From: Dysgonomonas sp. 520
GTDB taxonomy: Bacteria; Bacteroidota; Bacteroidia; Bacteroidales; Dysgonomonadaceae
Length of the DNA: 64,000 nt
NCBI RefSeq assembly: GCF_010501095.1
Contig: NZ_QVMP01000024.1
Location: 1 to 64,000, forward strand
Direction: 5' to 3'
In this document: piece after piece, positions 30,537 through 64,000 of the stretch
Position numbering within the stretch: the first letter of the stretch is position 1
Layout of the letters: each line of letters opens with the position of its first letter
Notes under the pieces: model-generated
The model's database searches: none
The model's input: the letters and a program-made list of their open reading frames with translations, nothing else
Told to the model about the DNA's origin: nothing
Made by a program: the position numbers and the translations under genes

Positions 30537-30573
30537 GGTTCAATAAAATTTAGAGCCTTAATTTATGAGAGGT

Positions 30574-31942: not shown

Positions 31943-32032
31943 AATACAATTTTTTTATGTTTATTAATAATCCGGCTATATCAAAAGTTTATCAGTGTAG
32001 TTTCCCTGTATTTTTTTGATACCACCCAGTTT

Positions 32033-34060: not shown

Positions 34061-34080
34061 ATTTATTTGATTTTATATCA

Positions 34081-34107
34081 GTTACAGGTAAACGAGTTAC
34101 CTGTAAC
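34081..34107 (-). other. Intercistronic hairpin, 11-bp perfect stem
   Basis: GTTACAGGTAA (34081-34091) pairs with TTACCTGTAAC (34097-34107) around five bases, between two LamG genes. There is no U-run, so it may protect or process mRNA ends rather than terminate. Confidence 0.55.
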
Positions 34108-34117
34108 CAAATTAATA

Positions 34118-35326: not shown

Positions 35327-35396
35327 ACAATTTGTTTTTAAAGGTTTTAATAATAAGGACGAGAGTAAGGTTTTCATACCCACACTCTTATCCCGT

Positions 35397-37664: not shown

Positions 37665-37671
37665 AATATTT

Positions 37672-43898: not shown

Positions 43899-43969
43899 GA
43901 TAGTTTTATACAATAATTTAGTAAGCAATAGAGTTAAATGATGAAGCCTTTTAGATTTTCATCCTTGAT

Positions 43970-44049: not shown

Positions 44050-45240
44050 TTATCTGTTCAGTTTTTTCTTTAATCTTGTCAACGCCTCCAGGTAATAATA
44101 ATCGGCGTATGTCAGCGGTACATCTACTTCCGACTCGAAAGGATATGCTCCGGTGCTGTGTTTCAATATAAAACAGCCATTCTCGCCCAATTTTGCCGTA
44201 TATTCGGGCGAAGCCAATGCCCGTATTTGTTTTTCAACCACGGTCATATATTCTTTTGCCCTGTCTTTGTCTACATAGTCGCTCAACTCAATCAGAGCCG
44301 AAGCCATAAGACAACCTGCCGAAGCATCTCTGTTTGTATTTGGAATATCAGGTGCATTATAATCCCAGTAAGGAATATAGTCTTCCGGCATGTTAGGATG
44401 ATGTATCAAGAGGTCGGCAATATTCTGAGCCTGTTGCAAATAACGTTCATCTTTCAACTCACGATACAGGTATGTATATCCATAAAGTCCCCAAGCCTGT
44501 CCACGGCTCCACATAGATTCATCCGAAAATCCCTGATGCGTTTGTTTTAAGTGTGGAAGACCCGAAATTGTATCGTATGAAACCACATGATATGAACTGT
44601 AATCGGGACGATAATGATGCTCCATGGTTTTATCTGCGTGAGAAACCGCAATTTCTTTAAATTTCCTGTCGCCTGTGTAGTTATAGGCCCAAAGCAACAA
44701 TTCCAGATTCATAATATTGTCAATGATAACCGGATATTGCCATCTGTCTTTATTGTGATCCCACGAACGAATCAGACCAATGTCAGATCTATAACGTGTA
44801 GCCAACGAATTTGCACCTGTAACCAATACTTTCTCGTAATGTTTATCATCCGTCAAACGCAATCCGTTTCCAAAGCTGCAATAGAGCATAAAGCCTACAT
44901 CGTGGTTATCGGTCGTATATTTTTCACGTTCTACACGGTCGGTGTATAGTTTCGCATATTTCAGAATTTCGGGATTCTTGTTGTTCTCATACAAATACCA
45001 CAACGAACCGGGGTAGAAACCGCTTGTCCACCAGCGTGAACTTGAGGTTGTATTTTCTCCATTCTCGAAAGAGCGAGGCAAAATACTGTCCTGTGCAGCA
45101 TATTTTTCTGCCATAAGCAGGCACTGTTTTTCCGAAAATTCCAGAGCATTGTCAATCACCGATTCAAGTTTTTCTTCGCCCGAACAGCCGGTAATAAGAA
45201 AAACAGCTAGCACTAGATTTAATAAATAATATCTTTTCAT
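44050..45240 (-). CDS. GH88/GH105 unsaturated uronyl hydrolase, lipoprotein
   Basis: A 396-residue lipoprotein (FLITGCSG, lipid anchor at Cys). The alpha/alpha barrel has DNHDVGFMLY with the catalytic Asp, then a second Asp in RDASAGCLMASALIEL, and the helix-rich pattern WSRGQAWGLYGYTYLYREL. Family enzymes remove unsaturated glucuronic or galacturonic acid from ends left by polysaccharide lyases, so the substrate likely contains uronic acid. No lyase gene lies in the window. The frame is open 16 codons further upstream; MKRYYLLN at 45240 gives the lipoprotein signal. Confidence 0.88.
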   Translation of the reverse strand: MKRYYLLNLVLAVFLITGCSGEEKLESVIDNALEFSEKQCLLMAEKYAAQDSILPRSFENGENTTSSSRWWTSGFYPGSLWYLYENNKNPEILKYAKLYTDRVEREKYTTDNHDVGFMLYCSFGNGLRLTDDKHYEKVLVTGANSLATRYRSDIGLIRSWDHNKDRWQYPVIIDNIMNLELLLWAYNYTGDRKFKEIAVSHADKTMEHHYRPDYSSYHVVSYDTISGLPHLKQTHQGFSDESMWSRGQAWGLYGYTYLYRELKDERYLQQAQNIADLLIHHPNMPEDYIPYWDYNAPDIPNTNRDASAGCLMASALIELSDYVDKDRAKEYMTVVEKQIRALASPEYTAKLGENGCFILKHSTGAYPFESEVDVPLTYADYYYLEALTRLKKKLNR

Positions 45241-45295
45241 GGTTTCAATTTTTATCAGACCCCGTAATGGCAACTTACAGATCTTCATGTATTTT

Positions 45296-47748: not shown

Positions 47749-49536
47749 TTACTTTTTATCGTAATACTCTTTCATGATATACCATGCCTGTTTGCGATAT
47801 CCCTGATCCGAAACCAAACCTTTTCGGTTCCAATCTTCCTGATTAGTCGGGTGGAAACGGAACGGAGAACGGAAGTCGAACAGAATCCACGGAGAAACAC
47901 CACGCAGATTTGGTATATTATTGAACATGGCTATGTTATCTTCATACAACCGAGCCTGATATTCTTCGCTCCAAGAGCTGGCTACGTCTCTATCGCCCGA
48001 TTGCCCATAAAGAGCCTCGCCTCCAAATTCGGAAATAATCAACGGCTGACCGGCAGCTACATCCCACACTGCTTTGTCGGGAGCAATAGGCCACGGATGA
48101 TACCATCCCATATATTTATTCACGGCAACTACATCAAGCTCTTTCACAAAAGGATCGTCCATAAAGAATACTTGTCTTTCACGATTGAAACGAACCAAAT
48201 CGAAAGCAGCCGTTATCAGGCGAGTAGTATCAATTTCGTTGCAGCACTGAATCAAATATTTCAGAAATTCGTTGCGTGGAGCAGATGGTTGCGTTTCATT
48301 TGCAACTCCCCAGAATGCCAGTGCACACCGGTTTTTGTCACGCATCACCATTTCTTTTATCATATTTCCGGCTTTTAGGCGTGTAGCATCATTTTCAAAA
48401 TCAATACCTTGCCAGATAGGAATTTCTTCCCAAAGCAAGAATCCCATTTTTTCGGCTAATCTTACGATATACTCATTTTGCGGATAGTGAGCCAAGCGTA
48501 TCATATTGCAACCCAATGCCTTTGCCTCCGACAATAACATTACGGCATCAGCCTCCGAAAATGCACGCCCTTTGCGTTGTGGTATTTCTTCGTGAAAACT
48601 GATTGATTTCATGAAAATAGGTTTGTCATTCAAATAAATGTCTTCACCTTTCGTATAGATATTACGGAAACCGATTTTCTCTTCAATTTTTTCATTTCCC
48701 GACGATACGATTACATCATACAGTTTTGGTGAATCGGGCGACCAACGCTGCAATTTTTTTACATTGAATGAAGCCTTTGCACTACCCTGATTATCGGTCA
48801 CAAGGCTTTGTTTGACATTTAGTTCGGGTATTTCGACATTTACGGACACGTTAGCGTTAGCCGCAGATAGTTGAACACGAACATCTATTTTGTCTGATTT
48901 ATATTTGTCGAGTTGAACAAAATAATCTTTGATATAAGTTTGCGGCGTACTCACCAGAAAAACATCGCGAGTGATTCCGCCATAGTTCCACCAGTCGAAC
49001 GACATGGCAGGAATGGCATCTGTTGTACGTGTATCATTTACTTCTACTGCCAGAAAGTTGTCTTTCTCTTTCACTACATCAGTTACATCGAACTGAAAAG
49101 GAGTGAATCCACCTTCGTGTTGTCCTATTTCCGTACCGTTCAGATATACCCGGCAGCGATAGTTAACAGCACCAAAATAGAGGAACAACCGTTTATCTTT
49201 TTGTGGCTCAACATCAAATCTTCTAGCATACCAAACAGTTCCTTCATAATACTTTAATTCAGCCATTTGGCTATTCCAATCGGACGGAACATTCAATCGC
49301 AAACCATGATCGAACGAATACTCGTAAAAATCGGCTTTGCCCTCAGGTTTTTTATTCAGGTATATTTTGTTTCTACGCCCCTGATCATATAAATCTATGA
49401 TTGCATCCCATTTTCCGTTAAGGGATTGGCGTTCTCTCCCATAAACATTTGTCATGAGATCCTGAGCGGAAATATCATTACCAAACAGGGTGAATAATAA
49501 TAAGGTCAACAGGGTTTTATTGATAACTTTTCTCAT
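47749..49536 (-). CDS. GH2 family enzyme, beta-glucuronidase-like
   Basis: A 595-residue GH2 with the short three-domain layout of beta-glucuronidases: signal peptide (1-25), GTVWYARRFDVEPQKD and VEVNDTRTTDAIPAMSFDWW, Ig-like domain, barrel with KSISFHEEIPQRKGRAF, acid/base Glu in AFWGVANETQP and nucleophile Glu in LIISEFGGEALYG. The conserved YMGWYHPW region resembles uronate-binding GH2 enzymes, but the specificity is not certain. It is six bases from the preceding gene on its strand. Confidence 0.9.
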   Translation of the reverse strand: MRKVINKTLLTLLLFTLFGNDISAQDLMTNVYGRERQSLNGKWDAIIDLYDQGRRNKIYLNKKPEGKADFYEYSFDHGLRLNVPSDWNSQMAELKYYEGTVWYARRFDVEPQKDKRLFLYFGAVNYRCRVYLNGTEIGQHEGGFTPFQFDVTDVVKEKDNFLAVEVNDTRTTDAIPAMSFDWWNYGGITRDVFLVSTPQTYIKDYFVQLDKYKSDKIDVRVQLSAANANVSVNVEIPELNVKQSLVTDNQGSAKASFNVKKLQRWSPDSPKLYDVIVSSGNEKIEEKIGFRNIYTKGEDIYLNDKPIFMKSISFHEEIPQRKGRAFSEADAVMLLSEAKALGCNMIRLAHYPQNEYIVRLAEKMGFLLWEEIPIWQGIDFENDATRLKAGNMIKEMVMRDKNRCALAFWGVANETQPSAPRNEFLKYLIQCCNEIDTTRLITAAFDLVRFNRERQVFFMDDPFVKELDVVAVNKYMGWYHPWPIAPDKAVWDVAAGQPLIISEFGGEALYGQSGDRDVASSWSEEYQARLYEDNIAMFNNIPNLRGVSPWILFDFRSPFRFHPTNQEDWNRKGLVSDQGYRKQAWYIMKEYYDKK

Positions 49537-49542: not shown

Positions 49543-51753
49543 TTACTTTTTGATTAATTCGAATTGTGTGCTTTTCAGATTGTCGGAACTGTTTCCAACA
49601 AATATTTTAAAGTCGCCGGGTTCCGTTACAAATTCATTTTTCGCATTAAAGAATCCCAAGTCGCCGGAGGTTAGTATAAATTCAATTTCTTTTGTCTCGT
49701 TAGGTTCAAGGTCTACCCGTCTGAATCCGCATAGTTCGATAACAGGCCTTGTTATGGAACCGGCAACATCTTGCAAATAGAGCTGAACAGTTTCACAGCC
49801 TTTATATTTACCTGTGTTTTTCACTGTAACTTTAACTGATATTTTGCTGTCCATGTCATACGCATTCTTGTCAATAGTAGGCTCCGATATTTCAAACTGA
49901 GTATAGCTCAAACCGTATCCGAAAGCATAGGCAGGAAGTACGGTTGCATCCATATAACCTGTCACCCATTGAGCCTTAGGCCTCCACGGACGCCCGGTTC
50001 TCTTAGTGTTGTAATAGATTGGGCATTGTCCGCTATGTTGCGGATAAGTAACCGGCAATTTTCCCGAAGGGTTGTATTTTCCGGTAAGCACATCGGCAAT
50101 AGAATTTCCGGCTTCCACACCCAACCACCAAGTGATAAGGATAGCATCGGCATACGGTTCCATGTCTTTGAAAACCAACGGACGACCTCCCATCACCAAT
50201 GCAACCACTGGACAATCGGAGTTTTCCTTTAAGTTTTTCACCAACTGCTGATGATTCTTATTAATATTTATATCAACTTTAGATTTGGCTTCGCCCGATT
50301 CCATCGACTTTTCGCCTACGGCAACAATGATGAGATCATAATTTTTCAGGTCGGGCATTTCCAGCAATTCATTGTTGCGGAAATTATATCCTTCGTGATA
50401 CGAAATATTTGCTTTCGGTAATGCTTTCTTCAACCCGTCCAACACTGTGATAACATATTCGGGTTTGCCCAATGCCGACCAATTGCCCAGCATATCCCAT
50501 TGCGATTTGTTGAGCGGACCCACCACCGCAATATTTTTTACAGAATTTGCAATTGGTAATGCCGCTTCATTCTTGAGCAACACTATCGACTTGGCTCCCA
50601 TTTCGCGAGCAATATCCCGATATTTACCGTTTATGTTTTTATCATCCAACTCATGCTCTCTGCGATTGAAGCAGTATGGATCGTCAAATAGTCCTAATTC
50701 AAATTTTTTAGTCAGTATTCGTCTCACCGCATCATCTATCAGTGCTACATCCAACAGACCTTCTTTTATCAGTTGTTCCAAATTCTTTATGTAACTTTCC
50801 GAACACATATCCATGTCGCAGCCGGCCAAAGCCGACAACAATGCCGATTCTTTTATGTCTTTGGCATATCCGTGCTTGGCAAGATCGCCGACAGATCCCC
50901 AATCGCTGACAACAAATCCGCCGAAACCCCAGGTATCTTTTAAAAGATCGCGCTGCAAGTATTTGTGGGCTGCCGCCGGGATACCATTAATTTCGTTGAA
51001 CGAATGCATGAAAGTTGCCACCCCCGCATCTAACGCCGCCTTGAAAGGAGGAAGGTAAACCTGATGAAGCGTATTTTCCGAGATGTCCACTTCTGCATAA
51101 TCTTTTCCTGCTACGGCAGCGCCATAGGCTGCAAAATGTTTTGCACAAGCCAATATCCTGTTCCGATTCTCGTATCCGTTTCCCTGAAAACCCTCGACCC
51201 GCACTTTAGCCACCTGTTTGCCATACCAAGTGTCTTCGCCCGATGTTTCCATCACACGCCCCCAACGAGCATCCCTCGACACATCAACATTAGGTGCAAA
51301 AGTCCAGTGAACACCATGAGCAGAAGCCTCTTCGGCTGCTATTTCTGCCGTTTTTCTCATCAATTCCAAATCGAAACTGGCAGCTTCGCCCAGAGGAATA
51401 GGGAATATTGTTTTCATGCCGTGAATAACATCAAGACCAAAAAGCAATGGTATTCTCAGACGAGATTTCATCGCCTCATCCTGATATTGATTTGCCCTTG
51501 TAACGGAAGTTACATTCAGCATTGAGCCTACCCTGCCCTCCCTTATTTCTCTCAGATGATCCTGATTGTTTATGACGGGTCCGGTGTTTTGCCTGTCGTT
51601 CGAATACTGATTCATTTGCCCTATCTTTTCTTCCAGTGTCATAAGAGACAACACAGAATCGACCTGCAGGCTGTAATCCTTCTTCCGAGACTGCGAATAC
51701 AACGCAGACACGGCAAACAGAGACAATATTATGACAGATATATATCTTTTCAT
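49543..51753 (-). CDS. GH3 family beta-glycosidase
   Basis: A 736-residue BglX-like enzyme: signal peptide (MKRYISVIILSLFAVSALYS), DSVLSLMTLEEKIGQMNQY, PLLFGLDVIHGMKTIFPI, AKHFAAYGAAVAGKDY, nucleophile in GGFVVSDWGSV, second domain KSIVLLKNEAALPI and cap YGFGYGLSYTQFEI. Its ATG at 51753 overlaps the stop of the GH97 gene by four bases, which fixes the start and shows coupling; an earlier ATG at 51777 lies within GH97. Confidence 0.93.
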   Translation of the reverse strand: MKRYISVIILSLFAVSALYSQSRKKDYSLQVDSVLSLMTLEEKIGQMNQYSNDRQNTGPVINNQDHLREIREGRVGSMLNVTSVTRANQYQDEAMKSRLRIPLLFGLDVIHGMKTIFPIPLGEAASFDLELMRKTAEIAAEEASAHGVHWTFAPNVDVSRDARWGRVMETSGEDTWYGKQVAKVRVEGFQGNGYENRNRILACAKHFAAYGAAVAGKDYAEVDISENTLHQVYLPPFKAALDAGVATFMHSFNEINGIPAAAHKYLQRDLLKDTWGFGGFVVSDWGSVGDLAKHGYAKDIKESALLSALAGCDMDMCSESYIKNLEQLIKEGLLDVALIDDAVRRILTKKFELGLFDDPYCFNRREHELDDKNINGKYRDIAREMGAKSIVLLKNEAALPIANSVKNIAVVGPLNKSQWDMLGNWSALGKPEYVITVLDGLKKALPKANISYHEGYNFRNNELLEMPDLKNYDLIIVAVGEKSMESGEAKSKVDININKNHQQLVKNLKENSDCPVVALVMGGRPLVFKDMEPYADAILITWWLGVEAGNSIADVLTGKYNPSGKLPVTYPQHSGQCPIYYNTKRTGRPWRPKAQWVTGYMDATVLPAYAFGYGLSYTQFEISEPTIDKNAYDMDSKISVKVTVKNTGKYKGCETVQLYLQDVAGSITRPVIELCGFRRVDLEPNETKEIEFILTSGDLGFFNAKNEFVTEPGDFKIFVGNSSDNLKSTQFELIKK

Positions 51754-53741
51754 TTTTTGTAAATTTTCATGGCACATCCACCTCCGGAAGCCATTGATAT
51801 ATTTAATTTCCGATCTGCCGGGATGTTGATAATTTCTTTTTTATAATCAGAAGCTATCCTATTGGCATTTGCTCCATCTTTAAATATTTCGGCTTGCCAG
51901 CTACCTTCGCCAAGAAACGAAAGGTCGAGTTGCAATGTGCGTGCATCCCAATTGGTGAGCGCACCCAGATACCACACATTATCTTTCTGACGGGCAATTG
52001 ATATGTATTTTCCTATTTCGCCATTCAAGGCAATGGTTCTATCCCAAACTGTGGGAATTGCAGTTATAAATCCGGTACATTCCGGTTCCCGCTCATAATT
52101 GTTAGGACTATCGCAAAGCATATTCAAAGGCGATTCGAAAACCACATATTCTGCCAATTGATGGCAACGGGTTCCTTGGCTCATAGGCTCATTGTTGATC
52201 GCACGGAATGTCTTTTTATTACCGTTGCGCATTGCCCCTTGTGTATAATCGACCGGACCTGCTACCATGCGTATAAACGGCATGGTTACATCATAAAGCA
52301 CCTGATCTGTGTTTATATCAGACCATTTTTGCTGTTCTTGTCCGTGCACACCCTCATAGTTGATTATGTTCGGATAAGTCCGGTTAAGCCCGGTCGGTTT
52401 ATACGTCCCGTGAAAATCGATTAGTAGTTTATATTTGGCAGCTAGTTCCGCAGTTTTGTAGTGAAAATCAACCATGGGCTGATCGTCCCTGTCCATAAAG
52501 TCTATTTTGAATCCTTTAATTCCCATTTCGGAATAATGGCGGCATACACGCTCCATATCCCGTTCAAAGGCATAATATCCCGCCCAAAGTATCAGTCCTA
52601 CATTTTTAGACTTGGCATAAGAAATCAGTTTCTTCAAATCAATTGCAGGAACTACCTGAAATAGGTCTGCTTTGAGGTTTACTGCCCAGCCTTCGTCCAA
52701 GATCACGTATTCGATGTTGTTTCGAGATGCAAAATCAATGTATGCCATGTAGGTTTCGTTGTTCACTCCGGCCTCGAAGTCTACATTGTAAATTCCCCAG
52801 TTGTTCCACCATTCCCAAGCAACTTTTCCCGGTTTAATCCATGAGATATCGCTCACCCTCGAAGGCGAGGCCAGCTTGTATACCATATCACTATCTGCCA
52901 ACTCGTTGTCGTTGGTAGATACGATGGCTATACGCCAAGGGAAATTGGTTTTGGCCTTACATTTGGCAATATACGGTTCCCGTTCGGTTACAATTTGTTG
53001 CAATTCATTATGCCCACCTTGTTTTGTAGATATGGGGAAAGGCGCAAAATGCGATTTCAGAGAAGTAGACGCATTGTTGTTTTGCAGATACATTCCCGGA
53101 TAACTTTCCAAGTCTGATTCTGCTATACACAGCTTCTTACCTCCATCAAGCTCTACTACCACGGGTGTAAACATCAAGCGTTTCGGGTTGATGCCCGACA
53201 ATGGAGTTTGAGTGTATGTGTTTTCGAAAGAATTGAAATATTGGGTTTCAAAGTCTTCGTATTTTGTTTTCACATACGGGATGTATGTGTTATAGTCTTT
53301 TTTGAAATTAAATACGGCTTCCTCATTCTTTACGATAAAATCTTTTTTACCTATTGACACAAAGCGGTATGCAACTCCCTCATTATAAGCACGGAATATG
53401 AGGCTGAAATCTTCCTTGAAATTCAAAACCATTTCATTGTAATGATCTCTTATCTCCTTTCTCTTATAAAAAGGTGAGGCAATCGTATTGTCAACCGAAG
53501 TTGTTTTCACATTTTTCAGGTGCGAATCTACCCCGAAGCTTTTGGCTCCATCCAACTCCATCGAAACGGAAGAAGCAGCTATCACCTCGTCACCTTCGTG
53601 AGTGACGGTATATGTTATCTTTTTATCGACCACAACACTTACACTCAATTTTCCGTCGGGCGACTTCAATTGATTTGTTTTCTGAGCAACAACACTTGTT
53701 GTGAAAATGAACGATATTATAAGAAGAATTAAATGTCTCAT
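51750..53741 (-). CDS. GH97 family alpha-glycosidase
   Basis: A 663-residue enzyme with signal peptide (1-19) and the full GH97 layout: N-terminal beta-super-sandwich (LKSPDGKLSVSVVVDK, YNEGVAYRF), TIM barrel with WEWWNNWG, YVILDEGWA and GIKGFKIDFMDRDDQ, and a C-terminal beta domain. The Asp in FKIDFMDR is the nucleophile position of the retaining alpha-galactosidase branch of GH97, rather than the inverting SusB alpha-glucosidase branch, so galactosidase activity is favoured (inference). Confidence 0.9.
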   Translation of the reverse strand: MRHLILLIISFIFTTSVVAQKTNQLKSPDGKLSVSVVVDKKITYTVTHEGDEVIAASSVSMELDGAKSFGVDSHLKNVKTTSVDNTIASPFYKRKEIRDHYNEMVLNFKEDFSLIFRAYNEGVAYRFVSIGKKDFIVKNEEAVFNFKKDYNTYIPYVKTKYEDFETQYFNSFENTYTQTPLSGINPKRLMFTPVVVELDGGKKLCIAESDLESYPGMYLQNNNASTSLKSHFAPFPISTKQGGHNELQQIVTEREPYIAKCKAKTNFPWRIAIVSTNDNELADSDMVYKLASPSRVSDISWIKPGKVAWEWWNNWGIYNVDFEAGVNNETYMAYIDFASRNNIEYVILDEGWAVNLKADLFQVVPAIDLKKLISYAKSKNVGLILWAGYYAFERDMERVCRHYSEMGIKGFKIDFMDRDDQPMVDFHYKTAELAAKYKLLIDFHGTYKPTGLNRTYPNIINYEGVHGQEQQKWSDINTDQVLYDVTMPFIRMVAGPVDYTQGAMRNGNKKTFRAINNEPMSQGTRCHQLAEYVVFESPLNMLCDSPNNYEREPECTGFITAIPTVWDRTIALNGEIGKYISIARQKDNVWYLGALTNWDARTLQLDLSFLGEGSWQAEIFKDGANANRIASDYKKEIINIPADRKLNISMASGGGCAMKIYKK

Positions 53742-53779: not shown

Positions 53780-55840
53780 TTACTTTATCACCTCGTATTC
53801 GTACAAAACAAAATCGTTGATATTTGGAATTTCCACTTCTATCAAGCCTTTTCGTCCTATTGTTTTATCTATTGTTTTTTGATTTTCCAGAATAGCTTTA
53901 CAGCGGATTTTTGTTCCTTCCTCGAACCAGGTTTTGAGATATCCTTTTCTGTCGGGATTATTTTCCCTGAAAAAGAGCAAGTAACCCTTGTCTCCGTTCA
54001 GAGACTGAAAGCCTGTCCACGACTTGCCCGACGGTTCATCACCTATGGGAAGAATTGTTCCTAAATGAAAATCGTGCTGTATTTTTTTATAATTGTTTAT
54101 CAGTTTTTTGATGCTTAGTGCTTCGTTAGGCAAGCCGCTTCCTTCAAACCAAGCCAAAGGTTGTCCTGCCATTGTTATGGCAAATAAATATTCGAAAGAA
54201 TATACTGCCGGTGCGAATGGATCATTACCATACTTATCGGCATTGCGCCATTTGTTTAGAAACTCAATCTGCAGTTTTTCGGCAGGAACATATTTTGCCA
54301 ATTGCCACAAATTACGCAGTGTGTGATAGGGATAATAGTTGCCCCAATCGGTATAGCGGTTTTCGAGAAATATATTTCCATATTCAGTAAACATGTGATA
54401 ACCGGTTCTGCGTCCGGCAGTGGCATCCAGATTGAATACTACATTATTGTTTGTATTTTCAAGAACCTTATCAAATAGTTTTCTCTGGTTTTCTTCCGCT
54501 TTTTTGGTAGGAATTGCCAGACCATCAATTTTGAAAGTGCGGATTCCGTATTCATTATAAAGGTCGGTGATTGCCTGAGCATCTTTTTGCCAATCGGCAT
54601 AGTCGTCCTGAACACTAGGATTGAACCAAAGACAAATTTCAACGCCCAGTTCTTTTCCTCGTTTCACTATCGGGTGCAAACCTCTGGGATATTTTACAGG
54701 ATCGGGTTTCCAATAGTCAGGATTGTCCCAAATATTTTTGAACGATCCTTTGGCGACAGCCGAATTAGGGCTTTTGCCCACTTGCCATCCGTCATCAATC
54801 TGGAAATGAGTCATTCCCAACTCGGCAGCACGTTCAACCTCTATCAAACTAAATTTTTCATTTACTTTTGAGTCCTGGCTGCGGTCGCCCCAGGTATTCA
54901 TCATCACCATTTCGTCCCGTCCGGGCAACAAGTTGCGTATATTTTTCTGATACGAACGCAAAGCACTTAGTTGCTCCAATTCGCCACCGCTATACACTCC
55001 TATTGCCACACTATAGGTTTTCACCCATTCATCTTTTTTTATGTCATTCTCGTTAATTCCAAGACCCGTAACCGTAAAACTTCCAAATTCGGCAGTAAAA
55101 TCATTCCCTTTATAAGCAAGTTGAACGCTTGAACTTGGAGCCTCTTTCAGAAAGAAGAATCCTTTTTCGTCAATAGGATTATGAGCGAATAGAAGATTTC
55201 CCCTGTACGAATTTTTGCGGTATGGAATTACGTTTGTTTCAAAAACAAGATTGTTGTTCCAGTCGGTTACATCATAAAATTCCACAGTTTTCATTTGCCA
55301 GTGATTCCCTCCCGGATTGAACTGGTCGAGAAGCGCAGTAACTTGCTTCGATTTCATATCTTCGGCAAATTCGATATTCTTCTTATCCGCCATATTCTCT
55401 GTTCGTCCTCCAAACACACTATTGGTATAGCCTTTCAGATAGGTATCGCAAACTATTACCGAACTATTTTTATAGATACGGAAAACACGCTTCACCTGAA
55501 GTTGGTCGAGAGTAAACGACACTGTAGCCTCCAAGAAAGACGGATGGATTGCATTTTCCTTAACCTCTTGAGAACTAAAGGACGCATTAACCGCTTTGGG
55601 GGTATCTTTTGTTATGAGAAAATCGGATTTCTTATTTTTATTCAACCACGTATGCTTGCCCGGTTTATCGGTTAGGCTATACGTAATTATATTTCCGTCG
55701 TTCCATACAAATTTTCTTTCTACAAATGCATTTCCTATCACAAGAGTATCGTCTTGCAAATGGCTGTAATAACTCTCTTGTGAGTAGGATAAGGAAGAGA
55801 GAAATATAAATATGAATAATATGATTGAACTGCGTTTCAT
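53780..55840 (-). CDS. GH36-like alpha-galactosidase
   Basis: A 686-residue secreted enzyme (signal peptide 1-20). The clan GH-D core is visible: NTWGDRSQDSKV, THFQIDDGWQVG, EICLWFNPSVQDD and RTFKIDGLAIP, where the Asp of KID is the nucleophile. The N-terminal 280 residues form the beta-super-sandwich and a distinct C-terminal beta domain closes the protein. Alpha-galactosidase or alpha-N-acetylgalactosaminidase are the usual activities. With GH97 next door, two alpha-galactose-type enzymes act in this locus. Confidence 0.85.
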   Translation of the reverse strand: MKRSSIILFIFIFLSSLSYSQESYYSHLQDDTLVIGNAFVERKFVWNDGNIITYSLTDKPGKHTWLNKNKKSDFLITKDTPKAVNASFSSQEVKENAIHPSFLEATVSFTLDQLQVKRVFRIYKNSSVIVCDTYLKGYTNSVFGGRTENMADKKNIEFAEDMKSKQVTALLDQFNPGGNHWQMKTVEFYDVTDWNNNLVFETNVIPYRKNSYRGNLLFAHNPIDEKGFFFLKEAPSSSVQLAYKGNDFTAEFGSFTVTGLGINENDIKKDEWVKTYSVAIGVYSGGELEQLSALRSYQKNIRNLLPGRDEMVMMNTWGDRSQDSKVNEKFSLIEVERAAELGMTHFQIDDGWQVGKSPNSAVAKGSFKNIWDNPDYWKPDPVKYPRGLHPIVKRGKELGVEICLWFNPSVQDDYADWQKDAQAITDLYNEYGIRTFKIDGLAIPTKKAEENQRKLFDKVLENTNNNVVFNLDATAGRRTGYHMFTEYGNIFLENRYTDWGNYYPYHTLRNLWQLAKYVPAEKLQIEFLNKWRNADKYGNDPFAPAVYSFEYLFAITMAGQPLAWFEGSGLPNEALSIKKLINNYKKIQHDFHLGTILPIGDEPSGKSWTGFQSLNGDKGYLLFFRENNPDRKGYLKTWFEEGTKIRCKAILENQKTIDKTIGRKGLIEVEIPNINDFVLYEYEVIK

Positions 55841-55852: not shown

Positions 55853-57745
55853 TTAGTCTTGTTTCAATGCTCTGGGTGCTTTTAAAAAGTTCTGTTCGTT
55901 AAAGCGTTGATTGTCGGGAATTCCGTCTGTTTTGCCTGCTCCCTCCTGCATCATCTTTTTCAATTCGTCCAGATGGTGCTGATATATTTTGCGTGGGGTT
56001 GAATTATACTTTTTACAAAGCGAAGCGGCCATACCTACTACTTCTCCCATCATTCCGGTGGTACGCATCACCCGTACAGTACCCAATGCCACATGAGTTA
56101 CGCTGATGTTGCGTCCTGCCATGAAAAGGTTGTCCACATTACGGGAATAAAGGCAACGGTATGGTGCTGCATACGGATAAATTTTAATGTGCTTGGTTGC
56201 AGCCTTAAACTCTGCGCCCGGAAATCGTTCGGAATTTACCGGATCGGGAAAATGCAGGTCTATACTCCATGAAGCGGAAAAAGACGCGTCTTCGTGAAAA
56301 ACATTTTTGTCAATATCATCCTGTTTCAGAATATAATCCCCTAGCAAGCGTCTGGATTCTCTTTTACCGGCAAAACAAGCTACCCAATCGAGGCTTCTAT
56401 CTCTATATTTTGCATTATCTTTCAACTCGTTTTTCAAGAAACTCCAGTTAGAATAAACAACCATAAGTCCATAGTCACGAATACGTTCGAAATCTTTTAT
56501 CTGATCCAGATTCATGCCTGTTTCCCATTTCCATTCGCCCATGGTTACTTTTTCGCAATTTCCTTCGTTAAAAACCACTCCGTATTTGAATTGAGGAAAA
56601 CCTGTTTTCTTTCCTGTATCTTTCGAATACCATTGCACGGAAGACCCCATAGTCATTTTATCTGCAACCTCCGGAGCGAGTTCTTCACCAAATTCGCTAC
56701 GACTTTCACGCCCCATCTTATAATCTGCACCTGCCAGGTAACCAATTGTTCCATCACCAGTACAGTCTGAGAAGAAAGGTGCTTTTAGGCGTATTTCATT
56801 TCCGTTTTCAATATGCTTGATTACGACCGAGCTTATTTTATCGCCATCCATATCCACGGCTATAGCCCGATAGTTGGCAAAAAGAGATACATTCTTTTCA
56901 TTGGCAATAAATTCGTCCTTCTTCTTATCTTCATAAACTTCGGCAGGTTGAGCATTTCCTTCTTTCGAGTGACCGAATTCGCGAATCATGCGTCCCAAGC
57001 CTTTGTTCTGTTCCAATTCGATACTACCTCCCAGATGAACCCTTATTTCGGAACTGTTATTTCCTCCCAATACCGGACGGTCGTTGACTAAAGCAACTTT
57101 GCATCCTTGTCGGGAAGCGGTGGCAGCAGCGCACATTCCGGCAATTCCTCCACCCACAACAACAAAATCGAATGTTTCTGTTTCATTAGGTGTGACTGGA
57201 ATATTCAACAGTTTTTTTCGGAACAACTCTAGCTCAGCCTGTTCTGCAGGAGGCATTTTACCCTTTTCCGTTGTAAAATAGATAGCATCACAACGTCCGT
57301 TAAAACCTGTAAGATCGTGCAATGCAACAGAAGTTTCCTTGTTTTTTATGTTTGCACTTCCTGCATATTGCCACTCCCATTGGTTTCCGCTTACGCCTAA
57401 AGCCGCCGGCAACTTTTTGCCGGCGATTTCAAGTTTAAATTTTCCTGCACCTTCTCCATTATGCCATGGACTTGTCCAGTTGAATGTGCGGACATATACA
57501 TGGTATGTTCCGGTTTCAGGGAAAAGCACAGTTGTAGAAGCATCCTTTACAGGAACACCCATACCGTGTGCATTCAAATAAGGTGACCCCATCTGATCCA
57601 TAAACTGTTGGTCGAGAATCCATCCTCCTTTATCTGCAAAACTTTCGGCCTCAACCAATACATCTGCAGCATAAGATTTTGAATGCAGAAACAGCAATAG
57701 AGAAAATAAGAATGTGTTTACTATATATTTTTTCAACGTTGTCAA
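55853..57745 (-). CDS. Secreted FAD-dependent oxidoreductase with N-terminal CBM-like domain
   Basis: A 630-residue protein with signal peptide (1-26). The first 150 residues are a beta-sandwich like CBM35 (VLVEAESFADKGGWILDQQF, GTYHVYVRTFNW). Then comes an FAD-binding Rossmann fold, VVVGGGIAGMCAAATASRQG (about 195-215), PVLGGNNSSEIRVHLGG and a C-terminal FAD contact NLFMAGRNISVTHVAL. Such FAD proteins recur in polysaccharide loci of Bacteroidetes, where they may oxidise or epimerise sugars; the reaction is not established. Confidence 0.88.
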   Translation of the reverse strand: MTTLKKYIVNTFLFSLLLFLHSKSYAADVLVEAESFADKGGWILDQQFMDQMGSPYLNAHGMGVPVKDASTTVLFPETGTYHVYVRTFNWTSPWHNGEGAGKFKLEIAGKKLPAALGVSGNQWEWQYAGSANIKNKETSVALHDLTGFNGRCDAIYFTTEKGKMPPAEQAELELFRKKLLNIPVTPNETETFDFVVVGGGIAGMCAAATASRQGCKVALVNDRPVLGGNNSSEIRVHLGGSIELEQNKGLGRMIREFGHSKEGNAQPAEVYEDKKKDEFIANEKNVSLFANYRAIAVDMDGDKISSVVIKHIENGNEIRLKAPFFSDCTGDGTIGYLAGADYKMGRESRSEFGEELAPEVADKMTMGSSVQWYSKDTGKKTGFPQFKYGVVFNEGNCEKVTMGEWKWETGMNLDQIKDFERIRDYGLMVVYSNWSFLKNELKDNAKYRDRSLDWVACFAGKRESRRLLGDYILKQDDIDKNVFHEDASFSASWSIDLHFPDPVNSERFPGAEFKAATKHIKIYPYAAPYRCLYSRNVDNLFMAGRNISVTHVALGTVRVMRTTGMMGEVVGMAASLCKKYNSTPRKIYQHHLDELKKMMQEGAGKTDGIPDNQRFNEQNFLKAPRALKQD

Positions 57746-57775: not shown

Positions 57776-59356
57776 TTATTTTACTTGCACATCAAGAAGT
57801 TTAACCCATCCTTCGGCGGTTGTTTCATCATTTACGGCAAGTTTAATAGCCGGTGCATTTTCTTTTTCTGTGTCAACAATTGCCACAGCCCATGTATATT
57901 TTCCGGCCGGAACATTTACCTTAGTTTTGAAATCATAAGTCTTAGGATTATCTTTCAACCAATCGGAAGGCTCACATTTATCGTCTATAAATATTCCTTT
58001 CGCTTTATTATTAGAATCTAACAAGGCAAAAGCAACTTTGTATTTATAATTCCATTGCTTGATGTTGTTCGGGAAATATCCCCAACCCATATTTCTCCAG
58101 CGGTGATTTATATTCACCTCTTGTCCCGAGTTTACATTTTCGGGCAGATATAATTGGTCTGGATAAAGACGATATCCTCCTTCGGAAACGAAATTTTGCA
58201 CAAGAGAAAAACTTGTAGTGAACCATGTTTCTGTTTCATAACCAACCCTGAAGTCCATCATATTCACATGAGCTTCTCTTGAAGTTTCATATTCTCCCAA
58301 TCTTACATCTTCAGGATGTCCTTCACGATACTTCTTGCTCGAGTCGGTCCAATATCTGTGTGTTCCACCAGTTATCCATCCGCCCTCCATAATGATAGGG
58401 ACTTTGTAGTTCCAGCTTTTAGCAAAGTTTTTCTCCCAAGTTTGGTAATAATCGGTCATACCAAATGCATCTTGTCTGAGGCTGTATCCTTTTGAGATAG
58501 CTTTTGCCAACAATGTAGAACTGCTTTCGACAGCCGATGATGCCCAGCTTGCAGGGTGTCCAACCACACGGTGATAGTTGATAACTAAAGGAACTTTTGT
58601 AAATGTTTTGCTATACAAGTCAGTAACCCAATCAAAAACTTCGGCTTTAAGTTTCTCCGTATTATCAGTAACCTTTTCTCCTACGCTTTCATAAATCACA
58701 TTATGAGCCTCGCCCCATTTACCCAAGCCATAAGCATCAATAAATGCTGTACGATCAGGGTCATTAAAGTCTTCGGCCAATGCTTTAATAAATTTTTCGT
58801 AGTATTGTTGGAAAACAGGATCTTGAGGATATGGAGTTATCCTGTCTGGGTAACTAGCATCTGCCAAATAATACTTAGCTCCGGCATCGAATACAAACTG
58901 TGGAGTATTTTGACGCTGGTCGCGTCCATCAACCACAATACGGAAAGCTATTGGCAACCCTCTTTTTCTGGCTCCCTCAATCATTTTTCCTACTTTTGTA
59001 CTAGTATCTCTCCAAGCATATACACCATCCTGAGGATTCATATTAGCCCAACTCGTACGAATGTAACAAGCAGAAGCGTAGTCGATCACCTTAACTGTTT
59101 GAGCAATATCTGTAACCCAAAATTCCGTATCCCAATATGATTCGTCACCCGTACCCGAAGCATACATAACCCAACCAGTCAGCGGATTACGAAGAACTTT
59201 TGTTTTATTGTACTTGGTTTTCACCTGAGTCCCTGTAACGGGTTCATTTCCTCCTGGATCCTTATCCGAATCTGAGCAAGAATAGGATGTGAAGCTCAGA
59301 AATGCCGCTAGTATGTAGCTGATTATCATTTTACTTCTTATTTTTCTTTTGTTCAT
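57776..59356 (-). CDS. DUF4874/DUF4832 lipoprotein, glycosidase-like
   Basis: A 526-residue lipoprotein (FTSYSCSDSD, lipid anchor at Cys 27). From about residue 55 it has the DUF4874/DUF4832 pattern RNPLTGWVMYA, YIRTSWANMNP, LPIAFRIVVD, GLGKWGEAHN and VPIIMEGGW. Glu 216 (WGEAHN) and Glu 324 (IMEGGW) are conserved in the chimera at 35397 and sit where acid/base and nucleophile lie in clan GH-A barrels (ends of strands 4 and 7). Activity is undescribed as far as can be told. Position next to SusE suggests it acts at the outer membrane. Confidence 0.8.
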   Translation of the reverse strand: MNKRKIRSKMIISYILAAFLSFTSYSCSDSDKDPGGNEPVTGTQVKTKYNKTKVLRNPLTGWVMYASGTGDESYWDTEFWVTDIAQTVKVIDYASACYIRTSWANMNPQDGVYAWRDTSTKVGKMIEGARKRGLPIAFRIVVDGRDQRQNTPQFVFDAGAKYYLADASYPDRITPYPQDPVFQQYYEKFIKALAEDFNDPDRTAFIDAYGLGKWGEAHNVIYESVGEKVTDNTEKLKAEVFDWVTDLYSKTFTKVPLVINYHRVVGHPASWASSAVESSSTLLAKAISKGYSLRQDAFGMTDYYQTWEKNFAKSWNYKVPIIMEGGWITGGTHRYWTDSSKKYREGHPEDVRLGEYETSREAHVNMMDFRVGYETETWFTTSFSLVQNFVSEGGYRLYPDQLYLPENVNSGQEVNINHRWRNMGWGYFPNNIKQWNYKYKVAFALLDSNNKAKGIFIDDKCEPSDWLKDNPKTYDFKTKVNVPAGKYTWAVAIVDTEKENAPAIKLAVNDETTAEGWVKLLDVQVK

Positions 59357-59503: not shown

Positions 59504-60745
59504 CTATTGTTTTTTTGCTAAAATTGTTTTATTTCTTAGGTCAAATACAATAAAGTTAGCTCCTGCCGGAAGTTTGTAGTACGAGTTACGGGTTTCACCG
59601 TCGTAACCACCATGCAAATCGCCTAGTTTATCTAAAGCAAGAGATAAGTTCTGACGTTTTCCATCTTCGGTTAGCGGATTTGTGTATGCATATGCAACAT
59701 TTCTAAAGTCCGGATCACCATAGACAACAAACTTCACACCGTCTCCGCTTGACAATCCAGTACCCTGATAGATAAGTATTTGAGGATCGGCCAAACTTAC
59801 CGATATTGTTCCTGGTTTTTCAGCAGAAGGCCACCAGCCCCAGCCAGTTCCTCCTCCAAAGAGCCACAAATTGGTAACAGTAGTTTGCACTTCTTCTTCA
59901 CCTTTCATCCATGTAACAACGGCCGGTTCAAGAGCTGTAGCCGGAGAGTGAATAGTAACTTCAGAGTTTTCGAAGTCTACAATAACACGATATTCACCTG
60001 CAGTCTCTATGTTCCAGGCAACACGCTTATCTTGTTGCTCAACAGACTCAGCCTTACCATCTTGCAATGTTCCTTCTCCATCTTTAGGATTAAGATAATA
60101 TTGCTTATCTCCTTCCGAAACTACCAATGGAATAACTAATTCACCGGGTTTCAGATTAACCAACACTGCATATTTGCTTTCATTTTCCAGAGTTTTCTCT
60201 ATCTCTATTGTAGCATTATCCAATGCGCTTCCCGACAGAGTCACTTTTTCCGGTACAGGAACTTCTTCTTTAAGTGCAGCTACATTTATTGTTATATTAC
60301 GCACCTCAGGAGCCTCGAAAGTTGAACCACCTTCCCACTGAGCCACAACTCTAAACTCGAGTTGAAAAGGCTTAGTTAAAGGCAATTTCCATCTATCAAC
60401 TATCCAGCTATACAGTTGCTCGGAAGTGAAACTTCTGCTGAATATGCCATCTTCTTCTGCGTTAATAATAGCTGTAGATGTTCCATAGTTATTCCCAACA
60501 ACATCCAATTTTGATGTATAGAAAACCATGTTGTCTCCTGCCGCTTCCCTAGCCGCAGTCCATTCAAAATTCAAGATATATTCTCTAGGGTTATCCAGAT
60601 CTATTACGATATCATAAGAATCTGCTTTAAGTTCTAGCTTCTCTTGAACTTTTGGGATATCCTTGATCTCATTGTCGCATGCACTCAACAGAATTCCGAC
60701 AAATAATAAAGGCAATATTTTATATATAAATTTTACTCTTTTCAT
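59504..60745 (-). CDS. SusE/SusF-like surface glycan-binding lipoprotein
   Basis: A 413-residue lipoprotein (GILLSACDNE, anchor at Cys). It begins with a SusE N-terminal Ig-like domain (LDLDNPREYILNFEWTAA pattern: DNPREYILNFEWTAARE), continues with two or more beta domains, and carries a tryptophan-rich patch LFGGGTGWGWWPSAEKPG that may form a sugar-binding site. It follows SusD, the usual place of the SusE/SusF partner that binds the substrate on the cell surface. It does not degrade glycan itself. Confidence 0.85.
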   Translation of the reverse strand: MKRVKFIYKILPLLFVGILLSACDNEIKDIPKVQEKLELKADSYDIVIDLDNPREYILNFEWTAAREAAGDNMVFYTSKLDVVGNNYGTSTAIINAEEDGIFSRSFTSEQLYSWIVDRWKLPLTKPFQLEFRVVAQWEGGSTFEAPEVRNITINVAALKEEVPVPEKVTLSGSALDNATIEIEKTLENESKYAVLVNLKPGELVIPLVVSEGDKQYYLNPKDGEGTLQDGKAESVEQQDKRVAWNIETAGEYRVIVDFENSEVTIHSPATALEPAVVTWMKGEEEVQTTVTNLWLFGGGTGWGWWPSAEKPGTISVSLADPQILIYQGTGLSSGDGVKFVVYGDPDFRNVAYAYTNPLTEDGKRQNLSLALDKLGDLHGGYDGETRNSYYKLPAGANFIVFDLRNKTILAKKQ

Positions 60746-60830: not shown

Positions 60831-62495
60831 TTAATTATCATATCCTGGATTTTGAGGAAACTCTGCCCCCTGATTAGCATCGATAATAGTTTGAGGAATA
60901 GGCCACAATAACAACTTATTTATTAAGCTATTATCTTTTTCAATCTTCTCTTTTATCTTTTCATTGTGTGCTTTTACACGCTCAACTATAGTTTCAGTAC
61001 GAACCAATGTGAAACGACGGCTCTCTTCTCCTACCAATTCGCGGATTCGTTCGTCAAGCAATTCATCCATTGTCATTTCTGCAGCACTAAGATCAGGAGC
61101 ACCGGCACGACGACGTACCTCATTTACCGCATCAGCAGCTTTTTGAGGATTATTTTGTCCCAGATAAGCTTCGGCAAGCAACAGATAAGTTTCCGCCAGA
61201 CGGAATTTCATTCTGTCTCTATAACTACCGGTAAGACTTAGGTTTTCTTCACGTCCATAGAAAAACTTAGTTGGTGTAGGGAACAAATGTTTTGTCGAAA
61301 ACCACGTTTGTTCCGTTATATTACATTTTTTACCAAACAAAGCCGTTTCCTCAGGGTTGTTGTAGTACCAGTCGCGTTTGATATTGTAGTTCGAATTACG
61401 AATATCATTAGCATTGAAAATACCCGGATAATCACCTTCGGCATTGGTGCCTTTAGTACCTACCCACCATTTCATCGGAACTATCTGAGCAATACCACGA
61501 CCACCCAATGTATCTGCCAATACAAAACCTTTTAGTCCGGAATAGTTAGGAATCCAAGCTCTACGTGTCCAGTCTGTTGAGTTAGTACCTCCTCCAATTG
61601 CGTTGAACTCGAGCTGTAAAACCCAAATACTTTCCCTGTTACCACTTTTTCTGTTTTGATTATTTTCTATAAACAGGTCGCTAAACACGTCTCCAGGTTT
61701 ATTCTTATTTACTCCGTAACGTGTTTTCATCAAACCATAATGCTTACTGTCAATCACTTTAAGAGCAGCTTTTTCTGCCTCCTCATAATTTTTTTGGAAA
61801 AGATACATTTCACTCAACAAGTGGTACGCAGCCCATTTGGTAAGTTTTCCATCTTTCACTTCATCAGGATTTTCCGGCAAATATTCAATTGCAAATTTCA
61901 AATCGTCTATAATATGCTCCAACACCTCAGCTTTAGGTGTACGAGTAAAATCAAATCTGAAATCATACATTATCCTTTCTACGTATGGCACATCTCCATA
62001 GAGATAGACCAATGTACGATAGGCGTAAGCACGAAAGAAACGAGCCTCAGCCTGGAAACGTTCTTTATCGGTTGGAGAATCCCAATTCGTGTTTTCTTCG
62101 GAATAACCCAAAATTAAATTAGCTGAAGCAATTAAGCTATATGCCCAATTCCAATACGAACCAACAAATCTTTCCGCTGGTGTAAGTGTGAGATTTGCGA
62201 AGTTTGTCAAAGATCCATCACTATTTATGGCCTCTACAATGTCTGTGGCAACATGCAATGCTTCATAAGCACACGCATTACCATGCATAAATGCATCTTC
62301 CTCTCCCCATGTATTATATTCGGCACGAGTAAGAGCATAAAGTCCGGCAGAACCCACTTCAAACCCATAGGTGCTGGTGTAAGTGTTGGTAGGAGCTAAT
62401 TCCCCTTTCAATTTCTCTTCCAAGAAATCGTCACATCCGGTTGTTAAAGAAGCCATTAACACAACCGCTATAGCTGTTTTTATATATTTTTTCAT
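60831..62495 (-). CDS. SusD/RagB family nutrient-binding lipoprotein
   Basis: A 554-residue lipoprotein (SLTTGCDDFLEEK, lipid anchor at Cys) of the SusD fold: tetratricopeptide-like helices, RFQAEARFFRAYAYRTLVYLYGDVPYVE, KWAAYHLLSEMYLFQKNYEEAEKAA and, near the end, RLAETYLLLAEAYLGQNN and VNEVRRRAG. It caps the SusC transporter and binds oligosaccharide at the surface. It lies 18 bases after SusC on the minus strand, the standard order. Complete length. Confidence 0.95.
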   Translation of the reverse strand: MKKYIKTAIAVVLMASLTTGCDDFLEEKLKGELAPTNTYTSTYGFEVGSAGLYALTRAEYNTWGEEDAFMHGNACAYEALHVATDIVEAINSDGSLTNFANLTLTPAERFVGSYWNWAYSLIASANLILGYSEENTNWDSPTDKERFQAEARFFRAYAYRTLVYLYGDVPYVERIMYDFRFDFTRTPKAEVLEHIIDDLKFAIEYLPENPDEVKDGKLTKWAAYHLLSEMYLFQKNYEEAEKAALKVIDSKHYGLMKTRYGVNKNKPGDVFSDLFIENNQNRKSGNRESIWVLQLEFNAIGGGTNSTDWTRRAWIPNYSGLKGFVLADTLGGRGIAQIVPMKWWVGTKGTNAEGDYPGIFNANDIRNSNYNIKRDWYYNNPEETALFGKKCNITEQTWFSTKHLFPTPTKFFYGREENLSLTGSYRDRMKFRLAETYLLLAEAYLGQNNPQKAADAVNEVRRRAGAPDLSAAEMTMDELLDERIRELVGEESRRFTLVRTETIVERVKAHNEKIKEKIEKDNSLINKLLLWPIPQTIIDANQGAEFPQNPGYDN

Positions 62496-62513: not shown

Positions 62514-64000
62514 TTAGAAGTTAACATTTAATCCCAACATATAAGAACGAGCTGTCGGATAAGAAGCCATCCATCCATTATCGTAGTTCAAGATTTGTCT
62601 CATGTTAGAGAATGTATGCAAATTGTTAATACTTAAATTTACATTTACAGCACTTAAACCTAATTTTTTAACCAGTTCTTTATCCAGATTATATCCTAGA
62701 GTTATATTTTTTATCTGAACGTAATTTTGTTTTTTGTAATAACCATGTCCTAAAGTATTTACATAACCAGGAGAAACAATATCGGCATTTGTATTTTCGG
62801 GAGTCCAATAGTTTGCATCACGTACATAGTTACCTATACCGTATGCCCACGATCCAATATTAGCTAAATTGTCTTCGCGCCATACACCGAATACTCCATT
62901 TACGAGGAATGAGAAATAAAACTGATCATACGTAAATGTATTACCCATCGACATAGTGAAACTTGGTCTCTTATTACCTATGATTTTTTTGTCTTTGGCA
63001 GTTATGTACCCGTTTCCATCCGTATCTTCCAGTTTTGCTGATCCGGGTGCAGCTCCTTCTTGTATTTCTTTTTCAACTCCATTTTCATCCGTATAGAAAA
63101 ATTCATCACCTTGTTGCCAAATACCTACCACATTATAGTCGTAGACAACTTGCAGAGGCTTACCTATAAACCATTTGTTATTGATATCATCCGTTTTATC
63201 GTTCTCTAGTTCTACAATTTTATCACGGTTCAAGAAAAAGTTAAGATTAGTATTCCATCTGAATTTTTTCTGATCAATATTTACCGAATTCAATGTTATT
63301 TCAATCCCTTTATTACGCGTTTTACCAACATTATCCAGAATTCTGCTGAAACCATTCATAATAGGAACATTCCGAGACATAAGCAGATCGTGTGTATTAG
63401 AGATATATCCCTCAATGGTTCCGCTCAAGCGCCCTTTGAAAAGTTGAAAATCCAAAGCAAGGTTAGTGGAATAAGTAGTTTCCCACTTCAAGTTCGGATT
63501 ACCAACACCGTTACCAGGCAGATAAACTGTATTAGCCATATCACCTCCATCACCCCAGATATATTTTACTTTAGAATGGAGACGATCTTGCGAATTATAG
63601 TGACCTATCTCATTATTACCATTGGCTCCATACGAAGCTCTTAGTTTAAGCATATCTATCCAAGCAACATTGTCTTTTATAAAATTCTCTTCACCCACAT
63701 GCCAGGCAAGTGCTGCAGACGGGAAGAATGCATATTTATTATTTTTCGCAAAAACAGAAGCTCCATCAGTACGTCCGGTCACAGTTGCCAGATACTTTCC
63801 TTTATACGCATAGTTTAGTCGGAACATATAGGACATCATTGCATATTCATCTATGCCTGAACTTGCCTTTGTTTTCCGCTCAGCAGTAGCTATCATATTA
63901 TAGCCAGGGTCGTCACTTACAAAACCTTCTGCACTTGTCGAAGATGAAAGCGTTTTATTTTCTTCCAAACTAAATAATCCTGTTACATCGAACCGATGGT
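62514..64000 (-). CDS. SusC/RagA TonB-linked outer-membrane transporter (partial)
   Basis: The frame is open to the right edge, so this is the C-terminal part of about 495 residues of a protein normally near 1000. Barrel motifs of SusC proteins are clear: NYAYKGKYLATVTGRTDGAS, FPSAALAWHVGEENF, LKLRASYGANGN, YSTNLALDFQLFKGR, NKGIEITL, and the closing VNVNLSINNLHTFSN with terminal aromatic LGLNVNF. With SusD it forms the import complex for the oligosaccharide. The plug, signal peptide and promoter lie outside the window. Confidence 0.95.
   Translation of the reverse strand, partial: HRFDVTGLFSLEENKTLSSSTSAEGFVSDDPGYNMIATAERKTKASSGIDEYAMMSYMFRLNYAYKGKYLATVTGRTDGASVFAKNNKYAFFPSAALAWHVGEENFIKDNVAWIDMLKLRASYGANGNNEIGHYNSQDRLHSKVKYIWGDGGDMANTVYLPGNGVGNPNLKWETTYSTNLALDFQLFKGRLSGTIEGYISNTHDLLMSRNVPIMNGFSRILDNVGKTRNKGIEITLNSVNIDQKKFRWNTNLNFFLNRDKIVELENDKTDDINNKWFIGKPLQVVYDYNVVGIWQQGDEFFYTDENGVEKEIQEGAAPGSAKLEDTDGNGYITAKDKKIIGNKRPSFTMSMGNTFTYDQFYFSFLVNGVFGVWREDNLANIGSWAYGIGNYVRDANYWTPENTNADIVSPGYVNTLGHGYYKKQNYVQIKNITLGYNLDKELVKKLGLSAVNVNLSINNLHTFSNMRQILNYDNGWMASYPTARSYMLGLNVNF

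Follow-up and report, generated by a model that had tools for sequence, protein, structure and literature searches.

A predicted surface lipoprotein glycoside hydrolase with a (β/α)8 barrel in a SusCD locus of Dysgonomonas sp. 520

Which protein makes the first cut in a sugar-digestion locus that holds many exo-enzymes and no recognized endo-acting one? The question is raised by a 64,000-nucleotide stretch of Dysgonomonas sp. 520 (assembly GCF_010501095.1, contig NZ_QVMP01000024.1, positions 1 to 64,000; hereafter the window), in which the gene at 57776-59356 on the reverse strand follows genes for SusC-, SusD- and SusE-like proteins and encodes a protein of 526 residues (hereafter the target). 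A paralogue of 755 residues is encoded at 35397-37664, also on the reverse strand. We propose that both proteins are glycoside hydrolases of an uncharacterized family in the GH14/GH42/GH35-like barrel superfamily and that the target cuts glycan at the cell surface, an interpretation that we consider fairly probable as a whole. The target is very probably a glycoside hydrolase, and its locus probably relies on it for cutting at the surface. The fold, the placement of the glutamates on its strands, their invariance and the context of the locus were computed here.

Relatives of the target were collected in one scan of a genome collection, which yielded 91 relatives; the locus counts given below use the best 80 loci. 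An alignment of 63 rows, made up of sequences from 61 of the 80 loci and the two window copies, was used to model the target with AlphaFold2. The model, with a mean predicted local distance difference test score (pLDDT) of 92.9 and a predicted template-modeling score (pTM) of 0.88, is a (β/α)8 barrel in which eight strands alternate with helices over residues ~61-392; the model and its fold matches delimit the barrel domain to residues ~45-396. A barrel-type fold had been anticipated in a preliminary description of this DNA, and the model and its matches to barrels in the Protein Data Bank (PDB) bear this out; a fold lacking a barrel was not seen. In a VIA-align comparison of the Foldseek matches, the top 31 rows were β-amylases (GH14) with Z values of 19.1-21.2, one of them titled non-catalytic, and the best match was β-amylase 1vep (Z 21.2, 293 residues, 3.5 Å). 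The remainder of the 50 matches listed (Z 16.9-18.2) are enzymes that we take, in part presumptively, to be of the GH42 and GH35 types. The likeness to GH42 that the preliminary description had proposed to look for was therefore found (GH42/GH35, Z 17-18), ranking behind that to GH14. Foldseek alone ranked β-amylase, GH35 and endoglycoceramidase first.

The target and the paralogue have in common the motifs WGEAHN and PIIMEGGW, for which two invariant glutamates about 100 residues apart had been described. Indeed, the two glutamates are residues 216 and 324 of the target (108 residues apart) and 459 and 557 of the paralogue (98 apart). Conservation was evaluated in a second alignment, of 109 proteins that cluster in the neighbourhoods. 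Tandem paralogues and both window copies are among them, and three of the 80 target frames were outside this cluster or unresolved. Four acidic residues, E216, E324, E355 and D368, were each invariant in 109 of the 109 sequences. Because only three of the 29 glutamates of the target (E216, E324 and E355) were invariant across the 63-row alignment and both motif glutamates are among them, the pair is conserved beyond chance. In the model, the loop that follows strand 4 (residues 203-207) carries E216, and E324 comes immediately behind strand 7 (residues 321-323). The codons for G215-E216-A217, which hold the candidate acid, occupy 58706-58714, and those for M323-E324-G325, which hold the candidate base or nucleophile at the end of strand 7, occupy 58382-58390 (reverse strand, computed from the start of the reading frame).

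Based on strand order, invariance and a β-amylase-like motif, with mixed results from sequence profiles, E216 would be the general acid; strand order and invariance only place E324 as the base or nucleophile. The motif is GLGKWGE (residues 210-216), which by eye resembles GLGPAGE (residues 180-186) of soybean β-amylase. The pattern G-hydrophobic-G-x-W-G-E was present in 105 of the 109 relatives, and Gly215, which precedes E216, was invariant (109/109). The titles of structures 1v3i and 1v3h assign roles in catalysis to Glu186 and Glu380 of the soybean enzyme, the latter falling within VAGEN. The target therefore has a trait of GH14, a barrel whose strand-4 acid forms part of a G-E pair.

A sequence connection to GH42 was found through remote relatives. 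The family profile detected four of these, L105 (E 2.2e-25), L106 (E 1.3e-14), L107 and L108, with WGEG kept in L105, L106 and L108. Against Pfam Glyco_hydro_42 (cut-off 21 bits), L105 (2.5e-6) and L106 (3.2e-7) scored above the cut-off and L107 below it; L106 additionally matched DUF4832 above its cut-off (4.3e-21) and DUF4874 below it. An expanded profile of 35 rows, built from 30 family members picked at random together with the window pair, L105, L106 and L108, was compared with five GH42 proteins using hhalign, whose values here are for single pairs and uncalibrated against a database. The alignment (P 1.8e-7) put E216 on the glutamate of NEP with low column confidence, and the profile is biased toward WGE because the three remote relatives were chosen by that motif.

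The weakest step of the proposal is the mechanism. GH14 is an inverting family outside clan GH-A, and clan GH-A enzymes are retaining, with carboxylates ~5 Å apart and usually an Asn before the acid/base glutamate. The target has the barrel and, by position in the model, invariant glutamates after strands 4 and 7; the Asn is absent. A classical retaining clan GH-A enzyme with E324 as nucleophile, a possibility that concerns the mechanism alone and overlaps our interpretation, would account for the placement of the glutamates at strands 4 and 7, the two intermediates above the GH42 cut-off, the superposition of E216 on the GH42 acid/base glutamate in one of two hhalign runs, and the appearance of GH35 and GH42 structures near the top of the fold matches. 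However, the residue before the strand-4 glutamate is an invariant Gly, not Asn, and the highest Z values belong to GH14. We judge retention of this classical kind to be somewhat short of an even chance and, given the GH14-like GE motif, lean slightly toward inversion. Accordingly, the clan GH-A positions of the preliminary description hold for the two strands, and strict assignment to that clan is not supported.

The same description had named both proteins DUF4874/DUF4832 proteins. Pfam DUF4874 (PF16173, cut-off 30.1 bits) matched neither the target nor the paralogue at E values up to 1 and matched nothing else in the genome, while the model itself finds matches in 13 of 296 Bacteroidota genomes; the DUF4874 label was dropped for the window proteins. 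For Pfam DUF4832 (PF16116), the match was confined to the C-terminal domain and stayed under the cut-off of 29.2 bits in both proteins (22.7 and 25.1 bits; E 9.2e-5 and 1.7e-5). A relation to DUF4832 is nevertheless likely from sequence, as the intermediate L106 scores 76.1 bits. Similarly, when the family profile was aligned with that of canonical DUF4874-DUF4832 proteins (L085-L101), the C-terminal domain alone aligned (hhalign pairwise E 7.7e-6, probability 84%). For the barrels, the local hhalign alignment was weak yet colinear, with WGE on WGE (P 0.0081), and the global one gave 12 columns only. Overall, the preliminary description is correct in outline but mistaken in using the name DUF4874 and in a strict clan GH-A assignment.

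The C-terminal domain of the target (residues 393-526, 57779-58180, reverse strand) was folded alone (pLDDT 89.1) and is predicted to be an eight-stranded β-sandwich, which spans residues ~397-526 in the description of the whole protein. The fold that it matched best was that of a carbohydrate-binding domain from Wzt, an O-antigen transporter (3.1 Å, 109 residues), with a Z of 8.8 that is little above the level stated by the tool for models without a clear match. Its probable role is carbohydrate binding or packing.

The target gene belongs to a SusCD polysaccharide utilization locus (PUL), as indicated by a SusC/SusD pair, part of a sensor-regulator and clustered glycosidases. In this series, the genes given with window coordinates are on the reverse strand. 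The order begins with a SusC-like TonB-dependent transporter (62514-64000, continuing past the window end; 1007 residues in L137), a SusD-like lipoprotein (60831-62495; Pfam SusD_RagB), a SusE-like lipoprotein (59504-60745; Pfam SusE) and, immediately after it, the target. There follow a flavin adenine dinucleotide (FAD)-dependent oxidoreductase directly downstream (55853-57745; PF12831), a melibiase-like/GH97-like putative glycosidase (53780-55840; no PDB relative at E values up to 0.001), a GH97 protein scoring above the cut-off of a retaining α-galactosidase model (51750-53741), a GH3 protein (49543-51777), a β-hexuronidase-like GH2 protein (47749-49536), and a GH2 protein at 901.5 bits against the 900-bit cut-off of a GalB-type β-galactosidase model (45296-47743). 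The series continues with a GH88/GH105-like candidate unsaturated-uronyl hydrolase (44050-45288; PF07470), a GH2-like protein (41172-43928) whose nearest NCBIfam model, below cut-off, is the BT4151 exo-β-1,4-galactosidase, a protein with GH35 C-terminal domains, a second GH3 protein, a small frame, and the paralogue. The sensor-regulator is a hybrid upstream of SusC and beyond the window end (L137:3881-5053), of which a 390-residue C-terminal part precedes the contig end.

The 24 proteins of at least 150 residues from 18777 to the SusC gene were scanned against Pfam, mostly at E values up to 0.001; the scan was confined to frames of that length and took in a minority of the overlapping ones on the opposite strand. 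The families present were GH3, GH2, GH97, GH88/105-like, melibiase-like, GH35 C-terminal domains, GDSL and DUF4886. No polysaccharide lyase family and no family recognized as endo-acting was found among these 24 proteins. The earlier statement that the locus has many exo-enzymes and no recognized endo-hydrolase or lyase is accordingly true for this set.

From these data we infer hydrolysis, surface location, endo-action and a substrate as follows. The 526-residue protein would be exported as a lipoprotein: its N-terminus has a hydrophobic signal followed by a lipobox-like SYSC|SDSDKD, as read off the sequence. The cell surface is its most likely location because the gene directly follows SusC-SusD-SusE, a position among exo-enzymes that suits a surface endo-hydrolase or backbone cutter. 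There the target would cut an acidic, galactose-containing heteroglycan into pieces, SusC/D would import the pieces, and the GH2, GH3, GH97, melibiase-like and GH88/105-like exo-enzymes would finish them.

Gene neighbourhoods were compared by protein clusters, labelled from window members or from one scanned representative. In many loci of Bacteroidota the target homologue comes after SusC-SusD-SusE and is surrounded by exo-enzymes. SusE was directly upstream of the target homologue in 28 of the 80 loci, or 31 when a second SusE type is included. Within the flanks, the 47749-type GH2 occurred in 33/80 loci, the melibiase-like protein in 24/80, GH3 in 21/80, the FAD oxidoreductase in 19/80, and GH97 and GH105 in 13/80 each. 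At least one of the listed glycoside hydrolase families was within the flanks of 58 loci. Going by their record titles, nearly all relatives are from Bacteroidota, with Bacteroides, Prevotella, Pedobacter and Sphingobacterium among the 80 loci; three are actinobacterial (two Curtobacterium, one Microbacteriaceae). The family is sparse: 5 of 395 genomes drawn from the phylum had matches; one of these is the window itself, and the other four are remote or partial.

Several observations weigh against the proposed function and location, and two other explanations draw on them. One is that the target is a surface glycan-binding protein, a dead barrel that captures glycan for SusC/D like other lipoproteins encoded after susE. 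Such a lipoprotein could hold the same gene position, directly after SusE; the best fold match of the C-terminal domain is a carbohydrate-binding domain; and the invariant tryptophans include W103, W214, W307 and W378. However, binding has no need of the strand-4 and strand-7 glutamates that are invariant in 109 of 109 sequences, the module is fused to a GH3 protein in one relative (L056), and a distant DUF4832 barrel is reported to be active. The latter is SIR_1591, a TIM-barrel protein of Streptococcus intermedius described in 2025 as active on an N-acetylgalactosamine (GalNAc)-rich polymer; the purified protein dispersed GalNAc-rich Pel aggregates (PMC12345266). On balance, a purely binding role appears improbable. 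As for SIR_1591 itself, its deletion gave no phenotype and, in the part of the report available, its catalytic residue is not named (PMC12345266); its putative link to the window branch is drawn through the weak sub-cut-off DUF4832 match.

The other explanation is an exo-acting or oligosaccharide-level glycosidase, for instance in the periplasm, in place of a backbone cutter. The nearest folds are GH14 and GH42/GH35, which are mostly exo-acting. A crude lipobox test was passed by just 54 of the 80 relatives (39 in an earlier test), two or more acidic residues just past the Cys of a lipobox were present in 19, and the signal peptide of the paralogue has no clear lipobox in its sequence. Against this stand the position of the target as the first gene after SusC-SusD-SusE and the lack of any other endo-acting family among the 24 scanned proteins, and we regard an exo-acting role as rather unlikely, if less so than a binding one.

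Other observations speak against a surface-cutting hydrolase itself. The listed glycoside hydrolase families were absent from the flanks of 22 of the 80 loci, in part because some flanks are short. Neither window protein matched a glycoside hydrolase family in Pfam at E values up to 1 or in NCBIfam at E values up to 10, and sequence searches found no solved structure. The Foldseek whole-model alignments were loose, with TM-scores of ~0.3-0.4 and root-mean-square deviations of at least 12.7 Å among the 50 matches listed; such values can arise when a model has two domains and the match covers just one. E355 or D368, which are also invariant, could replace E324 as the base. Among the remote relatives, L107 has no WGE motif and was excluded from the expanded profile, and L108 matched no Pfam family. 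When L105, L106 and L108 alone were aligned with GH42 (hhalign P 4.1e-8), the WGE glutamate fell off the NEP glutamate, and the strand-7 glutamate was not convincingly aligned in either GH42 run. These mixed alignments leave our estimate unchanged because it rests mainly on fold, invariance and context.

The neighbouring enzymes suggest, from their sequences, a substrate with α- and β-galactose and a β-linked uronic acid. The closest solved structures to the GH2 protein at 47749 are 6d8k and 7vqm ('GH2 beta-galacturonate AqGalA'). Group I hexuronidases of GH2 are described, in the available part of one report, as having NxK in loop 8 (PMC12243196), and NRK at residue 570 of this protein was equated with it, the place being judged the same by eye. 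Two further substrate clues were discarded: pectin RNA-seq of B. xylanisolvens XB1A, which the portion of the source consulted does not tie to L073 (PMC4769552), and Bxy_22780, which, in the accessible text, is a GH35 enzyme from a different type of PUL (PMC11739564).

Two neighbours have features of their own. The FAD oxidoreductase (55853-57745) has an N-terminal extension and was directly downstream of the target homologue in 8/80 loci. The protein encoded at 40391-41158 (255 residues) has GH35 C-terminal β domains only, with no barrel recognized; its family occurred in 18/80 loci, often adjoining a 911-residue GH2-like protein.

The paralogue comprises a signal peptide, LamG (residues 47-197; Pfam E 1.5e-19), the start of an Fn3 domain and the same predicted glycoside hydrolase module. 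Its C-terminal part is 52-53% identical to the target (53% over target residues 40-526), and the two proteins are the only matches in the genome at E values up to 0.001. The module is found in other architectures. The fusion in L056 is a GH3-PA14-Fn3 protein joined to the target module (L056:6343-10278, 1312 residues). At L034:9998-11986 (663 residues), the module is followed by a fascin/DUF7910-like C-terminal domain, according to a domain scan; L040 and L052 were likened to this fusion by length alone.

Related LamG proteins are encoded in series over 28575-35383, at 28575, 30659, 32033 and 34118. Two have putative esterase domains, GDSL in 28575 and DUF4886 in 32033. A type IX secretion system tail was recognized by Pfam only in 28575, and the proteins at 30659, 32033 and 34118 share C-terminal sequence. 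The LamG-Fn3-tail protein at 34118-35383 apparently has a counterpart in two pieces at 35397-38157. Residues 20-289 of this protein can be aligned to the beginning of the 35397 protein and residues 290-421 to the upstream small frame at 37672-38157; the gene order is swapped, and the glycoside hydrolase module is joined at the break.

In a broader and tentative reading, which we would not put at even odds, these proteins form a new glycoside hydrolase family that bridges GH14 and GH42 in sequence, with the PUL-linked members acting at the surface as endo-hydrolases on a heteroglycan that is acidic, contains galactose and is as yet unmatched to a known locus, and which they would open. If correct, this would supply the missing first cutter for sugar-digestion loci of gut, rumen and free-living Bacteroidota, a testable function for proteins of which both window copies fall short of every curated family cut-off across the barrel, and an intermediate between β-amylases and GH42 galactosidases.

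The description of the two proteins as candidate new glycoside hydrolases needs qualifying because SIR_1591 was reported active in 2025. The idea of active DUF4832-type enzymes is not new, and the PUL-linked branch is uncharacterized in the open-access literature searched, a search that CAZy lay outside. Searches of open-access literature for AqGalA, GH14-like proteins and new families likewise turned up nothing recognizable as the target family. Where mentioned in partly available sources, DUF4832 is an accessory gene in Gram-positive Pel operons (PMC7112168), and a DUF4874-DUF4832-dockerin protein is listed for rumen Ruminococcus (PMC7480376). SIR_1591 belongs to such a Gram-positive Pel operon and has GalNAc-rich Pel as its substrate, whereas the window proteins belong to a SusCD locus. 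The canonical DUF4874-DUF4832 proteins (L085-L101), for which no solved structure was found by sequence at E values up to 1, have a C-terminal domain that aligns with that of the target; in contrast, the window proteins have no DUF4874 match.

The GH42/GH35 β-galactosidases resemble the target in their barrels, and for GH42 in two intermediates above the Pfam cut-off and in the placing of E216 on the acid/base glutamate in one run. They differ in that Pfam Glyco_hydro_42, like Glyco_hydro_14, matched neither window protein at E values up to 1, in having NE where the target has GE, and in length, the five GH42 proteins being 700-731 residues against 526. GH14 β-amylases convert α-1,4-glucan to β-maltose. 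They share only 11-15% identity with the target, and the two glutamates of the soybean enzyme are 194 residues apart (186 to 380), compared with 108 in the target. Nevertheless, they provide its best fold (Z 19-21 over ~280-300 residues), with GLGxxGE at the strand-4 glutamate and a second glutamate further on.
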